Shown here: in pieces, positions 2,911-62,044 of the stretch
Layout of the letters: every line of letters starts with the position of its first letter
Position numbering within the stretch: the first letter of the stretch is position 1
Notes under the pieces: model-generated
Database searches by the model: none
Seen by the model: only the letters and a program-made list of their open reading frames with translations
Told to the model about the DNA's origin: nothing
DNA from: Brachycybe producta
Taxonomy: Eukaryota > Arthropoda > Diplopoda > Playtdesmida > Andrognathidae
Direction of reading: 5' to 3'
Assembly (NCBI GenBank): GCA_036925085.1
Contig: JAUPFP010000004.1
Coordinates: 4,230,001-4,294,000 of the forward strand
Length of the DNA: 64,000 bases
Program-made: the position numbers and the translations under genes

Positions 2911-3423
2911 ATAAATGACGGGAGCAAAATTCACAGGCAATTAATTGTGCCCAGCATTAGAATTTGTTTTCCTCCGCCCTTTTATGACCAAGTAACAAAC
3001 CAATTAGAAATTGATGACGTTCATAAAAGGGTGGAGGAAAAGAAATTCTAATGCTGGGCACAGTTGCCCGTGATAAATTCTAGTTTAATTTCGCTATTAT
3101 ACCCTCCCCTTTTTATATTTGAAAGAGAAAATGAGTTTTTCATTTTCTCTGGTGTGGCATGCGCGTCATTTGTTCCTTTTTTACTCCTTTCATTTCAATT
3201 TAGGTTTCCCCCTCCCACTTTTTTCCCTCTCCACGTTTCTCTCTCTCTCCCCCTTCTACACTTTCCAACCTTTTCCTCTCTCCAATTTAATATCATGGGG
3301 TTCTTGGATGGGAAGGGTGCAACATATAGTTGACCTTGAGAAAAAAAAACGGTTCATTTATTCAAATTTATATAAATTCCGATGTTACACACACACAGAG
3401 ATCTGGGATATTATATATATAAT
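2911..3423. repeat. Interspersed repeat copy A1 (MITE plus long tail)
   Basis: This segment aligns along its length with 55743-56309. It starts with a palindromic MITE (2931-3073) whose arms read GTGCCCAGCATTAGAATTT and its reverse complement around CAAGTAACAAACCAATTAG. A pyrimidine-rich tract and a conserved tail (ATCATGGGGTTC..GGATGGGAAGGGTGC, then GACCTTGAGAAA) follow. Open frames here are conserved only because the DNA is repeated, and their content is low complexity. The element class is not identified. Confidence 0.8.
2931..3073. mobile_element. Palindromic MITE, family A, copy 1
   Basis: The terminal inverted repeats are about 40 bases and include TCACAGGCAATT, GTGCCCAGCATTAGAATTT and CCGCCCTTTTATGA on the left, with matching complements on the right. 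The short unpaired centre is shared with the copies at about 22056-22201 and 55764-55910. There is no coding capacity, so it is non-autonomous. The superfamily is not assigned because no clear target-site duplication is visible. Confidence 0.75.
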
Positions 3424-47700: not shown

Positions 47701-50700
47701 TTTAAATTAAGCAACAAATACATATCTAAAAAGTAAAAGAATTCTTTAAATGTACTACTATGACGTGTAAAATGTTTTGCAAAAAAAGACACAAGTTAAT
47801 ATAAAACGCCACAAATAACAGCAAAAAAAAAGTAAATCAAAAGATTGCATAAATATAATTTAAAAACAAAAATCAAAACAACTTTATTCTCGTAATTTAC
47901 TCCAGTGAATGCCGTCATCGTAACCAGTTGCAAATCTTACAAATATCTATAAATTTACTTAAAATAAAGCTAAGCTAAATATATGATGCAAGACAAAACT
48001 CTCTAGTGAGTCTACGGAAAGATCATACGTTTGACATTGTTTAAGCTTCGTACTATCCTCTTTAAAGCATTCACAATAATAAAGCTATTTACATATCTTA
48101 ATGCCTCCTTTATGAAGTAAATTAAAAAAAAACGATCTCAATTCTTGACTTTTGTCTTAGAAGGCAAGCAAACATGCAAAGTTACTGTATAATCACTGGA
48201 CAAATACTATAGATCTGCGAACGGTGTTTACAAAGAACGAGTGAGAAAAACATACTTAGTTTCTTCATCACCAACCTATAGGAAATTTGCCTTTGTACTT
48301 TTCTTTTAATGTCAATAACAAGCCTGGTGGGTGGAAACGAAAAAGACTCGACATGGGTGATTATAACGATATTCGACAGCCTAAGTCTTGTCATTACTTA
48401 ATTGACAAACTTTTATCTTGCTCCTTGCAGACCTCCAGTACGCTAATGAGTATTGATTGATCTCTAAAGCATAATGCAAGTAGTAATCATTTAAAACATT
48501 CAGTTTCGAGAGACCAACCAAACAATGAACGAACACAACATTCCGATGGCAATTTCTCTCCCACAGGAGCAAAGAAATCTACCAAACAAAACAATAAGAA
48601 ATTTTAAACAAATAGCTGTTATAACAGCCACCGATGCCTATACCAATCATGACATATATACTCATTATTCTTCACAACAACAGTTATGCCTACAGACGCA
48701 AAATAACACTAGCTAATTACGAACATCTGCCATCTAATATTTAAGCATTATGTTTCAGTCATTTTTTTTTACATCTTCGAATACTGTCGGCCCCGTAGAG
48801 ACGAACAAACGATAGTACTCGACGACATATAGCAGCTAATAATTCAATTTGGAGTTGACTTGCACAAAAAAAACGATGCAAACAACAGTTACTAATGTAA
48901 GTGATGGCATTTGGCCAATTAAATAAATAAAAAAAACACTGTATGGGTTTGTCCACAAGGAGATTAAATTTAACACTAATGAATTAAGATTCGACATTTT
49001 TTTCGCTCTATACTTTAATGTCAATTAATGTTATAATTGTCTTTTCAATTTGCTAAATTATTGCAAGAAAAATCGATGCAGCTCAATTTACTGAACTTTA
49101 ATCAAGAAAGACTAGAATATCAAGCTGCTGCTTTGCAAGTCAATTTGATGAAACATCGTTCGTTACGAGTTCTGAACTCGTATCTCGCAAAGAAATCTCT
49201 TAGATCTAACAGAATGGCAACGTGAATTTAATAAGTCATTGAAAACAATGCATTCAGACTTGAAACATTCAAGACTTTTGTTTGTAAAACCTAAATATTT
49301 GCAATGCTGTTGTTTGTCATAAACATACACTAACTCTATGACATATTTTCTGACAATATGTTAGAGAGTTTCTCACTGAATGATTGAATATATAACATCT
49401 CAATGTATAAAAAGTTCGTCACACAACAGAATATAATCTACCCCCCCCCCCCCGGGTATATCTAAAACGTCACTCAAAATAAAGCTAAATGTAAAACAAG
49501 AATCGCAAAATTTTGTGTAGCGACTTTTTAAGTGTTACGATCTTTAAGCTTAGCTTTGCCTTTAGCAAAGTTTTAGAACACAGCTGTAAGACTCACAAAC
49601 TCTTGTCATATAAAATACGAGGTTTGAACTTTCTTTACTCAAGCTTATCATAAGTTAATAAAGTAAGTGGCATAATTCGACTATGAATAACTATAGGGCC
49701 TATATCCAACCTAATAAACTGTATCATGATTTCCACTTTTTCCTGGACAACGTCTCGTACCGAGTGAGGTCGGTCAAATAATGAAGATGACTGATAGAAG
49801 ATGCGACATACGAGTCGAATTTGGCGAGATGTGGTTTATGATTGGCTGTCCTGCCTGACGTCAACTCCTTAATGACGGAGTAATTATGAAAGACGAACAT
49901 AACGACCATGTTTCGACCGGGTTTCGAACCTGGGACCCCCAGCACTACACGCTGAGGCTACCTCCACCGTGCTACCGAGGAGTCGGCTACACTGCATACA
50001 GTATTTTATTATTAATATCAAAATACCATTTTCAAATTCTATTCCCAATTTTTAGGTACAGGTGTACAGGATAGGCTTAGGCTTTCACCAAATATTAAAC
50101 TTTTTCAAACATGAACAAAAACTTAAAACTAAATAACCCCTCCCTTCTAATCAAAATTCTAGCCTCATAACAAATGTTAATTTAGCAATGAGAATATTAT
50201 AGGACAATTAAGTTGGATACTTACTGGAGAAAACTGTTCCGTGTTGAATTCAAAATCATCAACAGGTACAAAAATCATTAAGGAAAACATAACCAACATT
50301 CTAATACAGGTCTACATTAGTACAACAAAAAAAGGATATAAACTTTAAGCGCTTCGGCAGCAGTAAGACGTACGACCAAATCCTCTTCGGGCCTCAACAG
50401 AGGCAGAATGTTATCGTAAAGAATCGGACGGAGATCGGGCGATAATTTTACCGAAACCCACTGACCAATTAGCCATACAACACGACGACGTATAATTTTG
50501 TAGCTGTAAAAATGATTAGTCGGTATTAAGAAGAGTATTAAACTATACAACACTGATAACAAGAAATTATATGAGCACACACACATTTCATTCATATTCT
50601 GTGTTGCAACAGATTCATTGTTAAATAAAATAAGTTACTAAGATATTCAACAAACCTGCCCTCGTTGCGTCTCAATTCTTTTAACAACGACGATACGAGC

Positions 50701-55742: not shown

Positions 55743-56309
55743 CATAAATGACAGGAGCAAAATTCACAGGCAATTGTGCCCAGCATTAGAATTTCTTATC
55801 CTCCGCCCTTTTATGACAGCCGGACCAAGTAACAAACTAATTAGAAATTGATGACGTTCATAAAAGGGCTGAGCAAAAGAAATTCTAATGCTGGGCACAA
55901 TTGCCTGTGATAAACTGTAGTTTAATTTTGCTATTATTATCCCCTTCCCTTTTTATATTTGAAAGAGAAAATGAGCTTTTCGTTTTCTCTGGTGTGCTCA
56001 TGTGCATCATTTGTTCCTTTTTTACTCCTTTCATTTCAATTTTAGCCACCCCTCCCACTTTTTTTCAACCCTACACATTTCTCTCTTCCCCCCCCCCCCT
56101 TCTACACTTTCAAACCTTTTCCCCTCTCCAATTTAATATCATGGGGTTCCTGGATGGGAAGGGTGCAACATATAGTTGACCTTGAGAAACAAAAGCTGTT
56201 CATTTCTTCATTCATTTAAATTTATATAAATTCCGACGTGCTTCAAGGGTTTTGTACAGTGTTACTCCACACACACACACATGCACAGACCTGGGATATT
56301 ATATATATA
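55743..56309. repeat. Interspersed repeat copy A3 (MITE plus long tail)
   Basis: It is homologous over its full length to 2911-3423, including the palindromic MITE, the pyrimidine-rich tract and the ATCATGGGGTTC..GGATGGGAAGGGTGC tail. A poly-C run and several small insertions distinguish the copies. It lies between IPO11 and SSR2. Confidence 0.8.
55764..55910. mobile_element. Palindromic MITE, family A, copy 3
   Basis: This is the best preserved copy. TCACAGGCAATTGTGCCCAG plus CATTAGAATTT is matched by its exact complement at the right end (AAATTCTAATG plus CTGGGCACAATTGCCTGTGA). The centre CAAGTAACAAACTAATTAG is shared with the other copies. Confidence 0.8.
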
Positions 56310-56933
56310 ATTTTATCTTATTTTATTTTTATTTAATTTATTTTAATTATAGATCTGATGGCATCCAATCTTTCCTTTTCTTATTTCTTTTATTTTCTTT
56401 TTTGACACACAATGAGGTACACAACAGTAAACCATTTCATAGAAAAAAAACTGATTGACAACACTCAAAAGTTTTAAAAAGTAGTGATAATCGTGAAGAG
56501 AAAAGGAAAAACAAGAAAACATGAGGATGCAATGCTAATGATCTAATCAACAGGGTCCAGAACATTGCGCCATTTATTGGTTTTAGCAGACGATTTTGGC
56601 GGATTACTTTTACCAACAGCTGAAATGAGCAGGCCTTTAAGATAAGTAGGCTATGCCTTAATCTAACACATAGCCTCCAACCTCCTTGGTGCAAATATAC
56701 CCTCCTTATTCTCCTATATGCGACGGAGGCTAATTGTTACTCTGTCATTTTTTCTGGGGACGTGTCGCTTGAAGCTTGAACGTGGCGTGTGTTTGAGGGA
56801 ACAGGTAAGAAGCGAAACAGATCATTTTTCACGGTTTTAACATTTTTTTTTGTGCCGTATTTACGCAAAAAGTAGCCAAAATGTATCGTACACTTGAATT
56901 AATTGCACATTTCATTGATTTAAGCTTAAAAAG

Positions 56934-57819
56934 ATGCGTTTTTTTACATTTGGATCGACCTTTACGGTGACGTTACTATGGACTCTGATCATGTGTGCAA
57001 CACTCGTTCTGGGCACCACGGAAGATACGGGAGCTCGACTTTTAGTCGCGAAACAGATTCACAACAAGTATTTAGTCGAGGGAAAAGACATTCTTGTCGA
57101 ATACACAATTTACAACGTTGGAAACAGGTAAAATTATCTCCAGAAACAAATTGATTCAACTTCCTCCACTCTCTTTGCTGTTTGCGTTTAACTAACCTTA
57201 CCTTTACAGTGCTGCTCTTAAAGTTCAATTGACCGATGCTTCGTACCCAGAAGATACTTTCGAAGTAGTTAGGGGTCTTCTCAGCATTCATTTGGATCGT
57301 CTCGCACCGTATCCTTTCGTCTGTTCACGTTTTTTTTTTTTCGTTTTTTGTTAAATCTTGACTCTGAAGTTAACAGATCGACAAACATCAGTCATTCGGT
57401 CGTCTTAAGACCCAAAGTTCCAGGATATTTGAACTTCTCGGCAGCCGAAGTACGATACTTGTCTCTAGAAACGGCAAAAGAAGAACAGGTGATAATAACA
57501 GAACTGAGATTCTAAAGGTTCGATTCTCAAAATTTTGTTTCTCTGTTGCAGTTTGGATACAGTTCTGAGCCCGGACAAGGTGACGTTGCTTCGTTTCGTG
57601 ACTTTGACAGGAAGTTTTCGCCTCATTTCGTACGTTTGTATACAGATGAGTTGTTTATTTCCGTTTTATAAATGGTTTTTGTCTTTTATGCAGTTGGATT
57701 GGATAGCTTTTGCAATTATGACACTTCCTTCGTTGGGAATTCCATTTTTTCTTTGGTTCAAAAGCAAGTCCAGATACGCGGTTTCTACTTCTTCAAAGCA
57801 CAGCTCGAAAAAAAATTAA
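56934..57819 (+). CDS. SSR2: Translocon-associated protein subunit beta (signal sequence receptor beta), complete
   Basis: SSR2 is a subunit of the ER TRAP complex, which sits beside the Sec61 channel and helps translocation and topology of secretory and membrane proteins. Coding exons are 56934-57127, 57210-57308, 57377-57488, 57552-57629 and 57694-57819, giving 202 residues (human 183). An N-terminal signal peptide (hydrophobic [14 protein letters not shown]) comes first. The lumenal beta-sandwich follows ([35 protein letters not shown] with a likely N-glycosylation site). The conserved [15 protein letters not shown] motif then leads into one membrane span ([20 protein letters not shown]) and a short Lys-rich cytosolic tail. 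A 5' untranslated exon may end at 56804 (AACAG then GTAAGA). Intron 2 looks U12-type. Confidence 0.95.
57309..57376 (+). other. Probable U12-type GT-AG intron 2 of SSR2, 68 bases
   Basis: The donor GTATCCTTT is an exact U12-type consensus and differs from the GTAAG-like donors of the other SSR2 introns. Near the 3' end, ATCTTGAC resembles the U12 branch sequence with two departures and lies about 15 bases before the AG. The branch match is weaker than in IPO11 intron 13, so the call is probable rather than certain. Confidence 0.65.
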
Positions 57820-58463: not shown

Positions 58464-61400
58464 TTAAAGCTTTGATTCAGCATTGAACAACGCTTGCAAT
58501 TTTCTGCTAAGCATAATATTTCCAGAAAGTTTCAATTTCCCAGATGTGAAAGCCTAGAAGAAAAATGGTTTTTTAAAAAAAATATTGTCAGAATTACGAG
58601 TGATAACTTACCTTCATCGCATCGAGTTTTCCTTGCACCAAATCCAACATGTCATCGTCTTCTAGAGTTAGAGTACACTGAGGTTTTGCATTCTCCGGTG
58701 TTCCACGATAAACTATCTTGCCACCTCCCGACGTACGCAAATCTACAGCTAATATATTACAAATAAAGCAGCTATTAAGTAAAAAAAAATACCTATAATT
58801 TCACATGTAATTAAAAAAATAGCCTCACTCCACTGAGCAGCTGCCTTTCCGTTCTTTAAAATGTTCCACAGAAAGAGAGCATTCACTTTTGCACTCAATC
58901 CAGGAACTTTCGATGCATGTTCACCAATTTTTGCAAAAACTTCATCACTTTTGAGTTCCTTTGTATTAAAAATAAAGAAATCCCTTGAGATAAACTTAAT
59001 TCGAAATGACAAATGTGTAACTCACTGAAACAGCATTTGTCTGATTATTCGACTTTGAAGACGTAGTCACATTGATCAAATCGACATAACCACCAGACAA
59101 AATTACTTCACCAGAATCTAAATTCTACCATAAGCAAAGATCATGTTATAATAAGACGCAGCCAGTGGTCGAACGGGAAATATATTGCCTTGCACTGAAC
59201 AAAGACTCTATTCTGTTCGATCCACATATTGATCTCGATGGTCTGTCCAGGAAGAACGGGTTTAACAAATCTCGCTTTCATAGAACGAAATTTCTTAGGA
59301 TCGTTATTAGCGTAACGACGAAGAACTTCTTTGGCCACAATGCCGTAAGTACAAAGCCCATGAAGAATGGGACGAGAGAAACCTATTTTAAAACACACAA
59401 ACTTCAAACATAAGAAACTTTTCTCATTAAAATTATTGATGTCGCAGAACTAACCGGCGGCTACTGCGAAATCAGGATCAATATGTAATGGATTTACATC
59501 GCCACTAAGACGATAAAAAGCCCCTTGATCTACGAATATGGTCTTCTTGACCGTTGTGTCTGGTTTACGAGAAGGTGCTTCTACGGTCGCAACTTGTTTG
59601 TCTGAAGATCGCGGACCTCCAAATTTTCCAGCACCAACGATGAAAAGCGATGATTGCGTATGTAGAACTTTTGTTTGGCCGCGATAACAATCAACTAAAA
59701 ATGTGTCACATAATGAGAGTCTATTTTTTACCAATTTATCGTAACGAATATACCGTTAAGAATTATAACTGCTCCAGAATTTTTATCGAGAATGTCTACC
59801 AACGAGACTCTCGATTCGAGAACGTCTTCTGGCAACAAAGGCTCGAGTATTTCCAAGTATTGCTCTCCATGAAGAAGCTGAAAATATATAAAAACACGAC
59901 GACGGTCGAAAGACGCGAATGAAAAACTGAAAATATTTCACTCACTTGCATTAGATTAACGTTTAATCCGTCAACACCGCCCGTTATTATTCCAGACTCA
60001 AGCATTGCCGCCTGCATCGGAACAATTCCAAAAGTTGGTAGAGGAGCAAAACCTTCGCTGTTCTCGTAAAGAAAACGCAAATGATCTTCATCTTGCGTAG
60101 AAACTCCGACTAGAAATGAAATTTTACAATCGTAACATATTAAAGACAGGAAAAATCGTAATTTCATTTTCTAAAACAAACAAATAACAAGCTTGGTTTT
60201 CTTACCACCTAAAGCATATAAAATAACATCTTTGCTTGTGTAACGAAAAGTGGAAGGTGGGAAGACGTGACGCATTGCTTTCTCCGTACTAATGCCACTC
60301 ACGTTCGAAGGAACGATGCCTCCTTTAGAGTTTTCAATTGCCTCCATAATGGAACCAAAAGAATCTGAAATAGGTTTTCAACAAATCCAAATTATGATTT
60401 TCAACAATTAAACTGCTTCACATGAGACGATATAACCATTGACGCTGTTGATAACCAAAGAATCCGTCATATCTGTCGCTTTACTCCATGCATCTCGCAC
60501 AATTTCGGGAGTAACGCCATCTCCGCTTCCGCTACGTCGCAACATCGCTCCTCGAGAACGTTGCAACTGAACTAAATCGAACATATACAAATGAAGTCTT
60601 GTTTCTGAAAACTTATTGTTTATGATACAAAAAAAATCGAAGTGTTTTAAGGCTACTTTATGAATTTTTATCTACAGTCTCGTTATAAAATTTAAATAAA
60701 AAATAAGTCTAAATTCCAAATTTCACCCCAAAAAAGTTTAAAACCTTCCCTTCAACCACACTTACATTTTCCAACCCAGCCACCAGCCGTTTCAAAGATG
60801 CCTCCATTTTCATTACAAGATTCATGACACAACCAAACTACGACAGGAGCAATGTACTCTGGACACAGCTGGCTGAAGATATCTAAAAATAAACACAAAT
60901 TCAACATTCGTTAAACCATTCCATTGATCCACCATGATTGATACGATACCTGGTGGCAAGATGTTTTCTGTGAGACGAGATGCTGCCATCGGCACTATAA
61001 CATTGATGTGAATGTTGTGTTTGGCACCTTCGATGGCCAACACGTTACTCAAACCAACCAAACCCATTTTAGCTACAAATTCAGAATCATTCTGACAGTT
61101 AAAAGCGTGTTTCAATCAACAAACATAAATCAAGAGTTCAAACCAGATCCATAGTTTGCTTGTCCAAAATTTCCACACAAACCAGCCACAGACGACGTCA
61201 TGATGATTCTAAAATTAAAAAAACCCCTCCGTTATAGAACCGATCGATCGATCAAAACTGTTTCAATTACTAACTTTCCATATTTTTGTTTGCGAAAATG
61301 TGACCAACAGGCTCGAGTCAACATGAAAGCACCACGAAGATGAACCCGTTGAACTAAATCCCAGTCATCGTCGCTCATCCTTTCGAAAGAACGATCTCGT

Positions 61401-62044
61401 AAGATACCGGCATTGTTAATCAGGATATCTGAAATAAGAAACCATGTCATGCATGCCGTTAGATTTTCTTCGTTCTCGAAGTCGGCAACTCATATGAAAC
61501 CTATTCTTCCGAAATTGTTCAATGCCGACTGCAAAATCTTTTCGGCATCTTCGACCGAATCTAAAACAGTAACGTCATTCGAATGAGTTCTCGAAAGAAG
61601 ACAATCGACTGATCGAATGTTGATTAAATTTCATGATAGCTATACTGTAGTTAGCGACAGCTTTTCCTCCGTTCTTTCTTATTTCATCGACGACGATATC
61701 GGCCACCTTCTTATTGCTTCCCTCTCCACTCGACGTGCCGCCGAGATCGTTTACTAATGATGAAAAACATAACAATTTTGTCACACCCTGTACTATGTTA
61801 TCTCTATGGTGTATACAATGTGCCTCAAAAATATCTAAATAAAATTGAAATTCTAAAATATACCAACTACGGCTGCTCCTTTCGAAGCCAAAAGCAACGC
61901 ATAAGCCTTTCCCAATCCTAAATAACAAATATAACTAAAGATTAGACTGTATTTTTGCAATAATAAACGTTATAAAAACAATTCAAACTGACCTCCACCT
62001 GCTCCTGTTACAATTGCAACTTTTCCGTCAAATTTCAAAGCCAT
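58464..62044 (-). CDS. HSD17B4: Peroxisomal multifunctional enzyme type 2 (17-beta-HSD 4), complete, 18 coding exons
   Basis: This bifunctional D-3-hydroxyacyl-CoA dehydrogenase and 2-enoyl-CoA hydratase 2 acts in peroxisomal beta-oxidation of very-long-chain and branched fatty acids. Coding exons, high to low: 62044-61993, 61917-61864, 61753-61646, 61560-61501, 61428-61275, 61208-61144, 61072-60950, 60882-60766, 60571-60437, 60364-60206, 60109-59946, 59877-59754, 59694-59455, 59382-59189, 59124-59026, 58958-58829, 58748-58612, 58553-58464. Phases close to give 734 residues (human 736). Domains: an SDR domain with TGAGGGLG (13-20), NNAG, Ser149 and Tyr162..Lys166 (ANYGSAK). The hydratase-2 hot-dog domains carry the motif [14 protein letters not shown] (499-512) with Asp504 and His509. 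A C-terminal SCP2-like domain (about 610-734) ends in the PTS1 signal SKL. The introns are mostly short, and intron 14 is GC-AG. The sequence predicts full activity. Confidence 0.97.
59125..59188 (-). other. GC-AG intron 14 of HSD17B4, 64 bases
   Basis: The frame and the family alignment (FVQCK then [16 protein letters not shown]; human [20 protein letters not shown]) require the exon to end at AAG followed by GCAATA, with acceptor GGTAG. No GT nearby keeps the frame. GC-AG introns are a known minor class of U2-type introns. Confidence 0.8.

Follow-up and report, generated by a model that had tools for sequence, protein, structure and literature searches.

The importin-11 (IPO11) gene of Brachycybe producta almost certainly carries a U12-dependent AT-AC intron, as judged from its sequence, its reading frame, a spliced alignment and the scoring of alternative splice pairs. 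The intron is 74 nt long, in phase 1, and lies on the minus strand at 50266 to 50339 of the window, by which we mean the whole stretch of 64,000 nucleotides that was analysed. In the window sequence it starts with ATATCCTTT and ends with TTCCTTAATGATTTTTGTAC. The 5' splice site ATATCCTTT (50331 to 50339, minus strand) agrees with the U12 AT-AC consensus at nine positions of nine; the +5 base within this match is a C, unlike the G at +5 that marks U2-type AT-AC introns (PMC2831892). U12-type branch sites are expected about 10 to 15 nt from the 3' end of the intron. The match TTCCTTAAT (50277 to 50285, minus strand) shows no mismatch to TTCCTTAAY over its nine bases, and its second A, the presumed branch point at 50278, lies 12 bases upstream of the intron's final base. 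The 3' splice site AC occupies 50266 to 50267 (minus strand), in agreement with the frame. The donor, the branch site, AT-AC termini that coincide with a genuine exon junction and minor snRNAs in the same genome together place the intron in the U12-type AT-AC class at the level of sequence.

The two exons are joined in frame by removal of this intron. By spliced alignment, the upstream exon is 164 nt long (50340 to 50503, minus strand, the 12th in our model) and ends in GCGCTTAAAGTTT; the downstream exon is 41 nt long (50225 to 50265, minus strand, the 13th) and begins with CTGTTGATG; the intron after it is of the GT-AG type, its donor being CCA/GTAAGT. The join splits a TCT (Ser) codon after its first base, and the spliced frame reads LTAAEALKV-S-VDDFEFNTEQFSP, an unbroken importin-11 reading, whereas the unspliced frame runs into a stop after LKVYILFLLY. 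A first-pass annotation, made from the letters alone, had described the 5' and branch-site signals, a distance of about 12 bases to the AC and a restored frame, and we find both coordinates and sequence as it gave them. Within the intron, TACTAATGTAG, ending at 50312 (minus strand), is a plausible look-alike of a major-type acceptor and is the one chosen in a GT-AG-only alignment.

The gene as modelled extends over 26806 to 54453 (minus strand), with 24 exons and 23 introns. The model is a spliced alignment to a provisional human importin-11 reference; its first exon begins near residue 4 of that reference, without the start Met, and the last codon is provisional as well. The 41 nt attributed to 'exon 14' by the earlier annotation are correct as a length, but the number is 13 of 24 in a model that lacks the start Met, so that 14 is possible. 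Two exons other than those at the join match the Pfam family TPR_IPO11 (69.4 and 35.3 bits, cut-off 27), and the 68-aa translation spanning the join aligns ungapped to yeast Kap120 (PDB 6fvb, residues 505-571; E 9.3e-09). A 145-aa piece of importin-11 has three matches genome-wide, each an exon of this same gene. By domain content and copy number, then, the sequence is that of a single-copy importin-11 orthologue. No relative of a 55-aa IPO11 piece was found among viral contigs.

The intron stands apart from the others of the gene. Each of the remaining 22 in the model differs from the U12 donor at 2 to 7 of 9 positions and from the branch site at 1 to 4 of 9. Only 1 of the 23 is AT-AC, a count obtained with an aligner that permitted GT-AG and ATATCCT...AC forms only, so that the GT-AG status of the other 22 is partly by construction.

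Elsewhere in the window, exons of a gene for TRAP_beta (translocon-associated protein beta) lie at 56919-57512 on the plus strand (Pfam, 46 and 34.3 bits), and exons with MaoC-like and short-chain dehydrogenase domains (Pfam) at 59453-61489 on the minus strand belong to a gene that we take to be probably peroxisomal multifunctional enzyme type 2, HSD17B4-like. Two plus-strand segments, 3052-3330 and 55889-56176, have similar translations (CWAQLPVIN...FLDGKGATYS) and are probably copies of an interspersed repeat.

How often would such a signal arise by chance? We defined the joint signal as a 9/9 donor and a 9/9 branch site followed by AC 9-15 nt on, all within 200 nt. The window contains one such signal, and 1000 dinucleotide shuffles yielded two altogether. 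A looser signal (RTATCCTT, TCCTTAAY and AC or AG) was found 6 times in 200 shuffles when up to 200 nt were allowed, and 153 times in 200 shuffles when up to 5000 nt were allowed. The compact perfect pattern has a single occurrence in the 295-Mb genome, at the IPO11 site, against none for a reversed-pattern control.

Is a different pair of splice sites compatible with the conserved protein? We enumerated the GT-AG, GC-AG and AT-AC pairs whose donor lies at 50443 or lower and whose intron measures at least 30 nt. This gave 143 pairs, 29 of which keep the frame and are free of stops (12 AT-AC, 10 GC-AG and 7 GT-AG), and all 29 were scored. By Kap120 the pair 50339-50266 ranks first of 29 with 131, ahead of the best GC-AG pair (115) and the best GT-AG pair (112). 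Against the provisional human IPO11 it scores 220, and any GT-AG or GC-AG pair reaches 194 at most, the scoring output giving the best 14 of the 29 by Kap120. It is the top Kap120 score, along with the 9/9 donor and 9/9 branch site, that bears out the earlier identification of a U12-type AT-AC intron. The accompanying statement that there is 'no workable GT-AG alternative' was right in effect, all such pairs scoring lower, but too strong in its wording, seven of them being frame-keeping. When AT-AC is disallowed, the spliced alignment drops by 45 points, 4 of which are the site bonus given to the AT donor, and the aligner picks a false in-frame intron, 50373-50312, losing the VVRLTAAEALKV stretch. 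The prediction that GT-AG-only methods would mis-join the gene here was thus accurate, and because of this false join we warn that GT-AG-only annotation will damage IPO11 in this genome.

We consider it highly improbable that a major-type GT-AG intron is used instead, for instance from donor 50373 or 50343 to acceptor 50312, yielding a protein variant. Such an intron would profit from a T-rich tract preceding the 50312 acceptor, from the seven GT-AG pairs that preserve the frame and contain no stop, and from the choice of 50373-50312 by the aligner restricted to GT-AG. However, all seven pairs score under the AT-AC join with both references, Kap120 and the provisional human protein; the 50373-50312 join replaces VVRLTAAEALKVS, which aligns ungapped to Kap120, with unrelated residues; and a 50343-50312 intron would measure only 32 nt. 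Use of GT-AG sites would also leave perfect U12 signals without explanation. We also give hardly more than a negligible chance to the idea that the major spliceosome removes this AT-AC intron, a situation found in certain sodium-channel genes. Major-spliceosome AT-AC introns do exist, according to passages in PMC2831892 and PMC8280824, but the sodium-channel examples in the former passages have G at +5, and the IPO11 intron, with C at that position, combines 9/9 matches to the U12 donor and to the U12 branch site, the latter 12 nt before its end. Excision as a U12-dependent AT-AC intron is the reading that we retain.

The earlier annotation supposed that the organism keeps a working minor spliceosome and proposed a genome search for U11, U12, U4atac and U6atac. 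This search returned one above-threshold match each in the 295-Mb genome: U12 at 119.8 bits (gathering score 53), U6atac at 116 bits (33), U4atac at 84.8 bits (53) and U11 at 79.4 bits (39). The alignments of the four snRNAs are full length, and 14 control genomes gave 0 matches for each of them. Within the window itself, an Rfam scan found no snRNAs and an ARAGORN scan 0 tRNA. The genome's own U12 can form nine Watson-Crick pairs, through its nt 19-27, with TTTTCCTTA, the next A being free to bulge, and its U6atac can form six with TCCTTT, at donor positions +4 to +9. The U11 locus (L005 1501-1628, minus strand) begins AUAAAGGGUAU, and its nt 3-11 pair with all nine bases of ATATCCTTT, one pair being G-U. 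We dropped this nine-pair fit as evidence because the Rfam alignment places nt 8-12 within a stem; the fit holds no run of six Watson-Crick pairs. CENATAC, reported in passages of PMC8280824 as necessary for AT-AN minor introns, is represented by Pfam CCDC84 matches to three exon-sized segments of a single contig, which score 63.8, 30.8 and 26.8 bits against a cut-off of 25.3; one stop lies within the third segment.

Further minor introns are found in other genes. In the syntaxin-6 gene, a phase-1 AT-AC intron of 772 nt, ATATCCTTTT...GATCCTTAACTAGCTCTTTCAC, interrupts the N-terminal domain, whose Pfam score climbs from 51.3 to 91.1 bits once the downstream exon is added (one residue at the junction was mistyped). 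A Dbp10-like gene (L014) has a U12-type GT-AG intron, GTATCCTTA...TTCCTTAATAATTAATACTAG, and a DBP10CT Pfam match of 47.6 bits crosses the join. A third case, AT-AC, is likely in the gene of an RRM protein (L012 1501-1568, minus strand), where RRM exons lie upstream of the candidate intron and the downstream exon has no Pfam match. The last two loci come from a genome-wide scan with a relaxed U12 pattern, which gave 30 occurrences (three pairs of them sharing one donor) against 21 in a reversed control; 20 of the 30 passed the terminal rule and, besides IPO11, these two had coding flanks by eye. A perfect GT-AG U12 pattern gave two hits at one site against one in the control, and a longer perfect AT-AC pattern none against one. 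With counts barely above those of controls, we rejected motif counts as a gauge of how many minor introns the genome has, and the scans alone do not demonstrate many minor introns. Taken with U12, U6atac, U4atac, U11 and CENATAC, the syntaxin-6 and Dbp10-like introns make the retention of a working minor spliceosome well supported at the genomic level, in line with the first-pass annotation.

In the mechanism established for such introns, U11 would pair with the donor and U12 with TTCCTTAAT, leaving the branch A at 50278 bulged; U6atac would then take the place of U11 at the donor, and the exons would be joined inside the split TCT (Ser) codon. That the RNA is spliced by this route in the cell is what we infer from the signals in cis, the recovery of the conserved reading, the snRNA genes with their complementary stretches, CENATAC and the further U12-type introns. 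Since the introns flanking the 41-nt exon are otherwise of the major type, this exon must be recognised between two systems. Bridging of the two via U11-59K is described in passages of PMC8034651, and U11-59K may play this role here. A more particular history or function seems unlikely to us, either a lineage-specific intron (by gain or change of type) or a retention switch on importin-11 that acts slowly and depends on CENATAC. Such a switch is suggested by the in-frame stop in the 74-nt intron, and the internal major-type acceptor could yield a second isoform.

The IPO11 AT-AC intron is genuine, but as a representative of a known class it is ordinary and expected. It matters as a sign that this genome retains AT-AC minor introns and the full set of minor snRNAs. 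Minor introns occur in 64% of the eukaryotic genera sampled in a 2023 survey (PMC10639083); the same survey finds that they tend not to lie in phase 0 (22% on average) and that their lengths rise with those of major introns from species to species. A 74-nt phase-1 intron with neighbours of 62-152 nt fits both trends. The AT-AC subtype makes up about a quarter of U12 introns in human and 8.6% in honeybee, by a passage of PMC7367187. Among the papers listed by our searches, which covered article text, none links IPO11 to minor introns, one paper on FUS mentioning each of the two terms once, and IPO11 is absent among the listed passages of PMC8280824 on IPO genes.

Compared with animal U12-type AT-AC introns such as those of syntaxin-6 (which PMC2831892 places among the AT-AC U12 genes of both fly and human), IPO5 (intron 21, the AT-AC example used in the PMC8280824 passages) and PHB2, the present intron has the same donor, branch site, spacing and termini, but differs in gene and position, being in IPO11. 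Passages of PMC8280824 also report that the affected AT-AN genes are enriched for nucleocytoplasmic transport. The IPO11 intron shares with those CENATAC-dependent introns the AT-AC subtype and a place in a nuclear import receptor gene, in a genome that has CENATAC exons; with its perfect signals in an import receptor gene, it adds a case to the link, as those passages present it, between AT-AN introns, CENATAC and nucleocytoplasmic transport.
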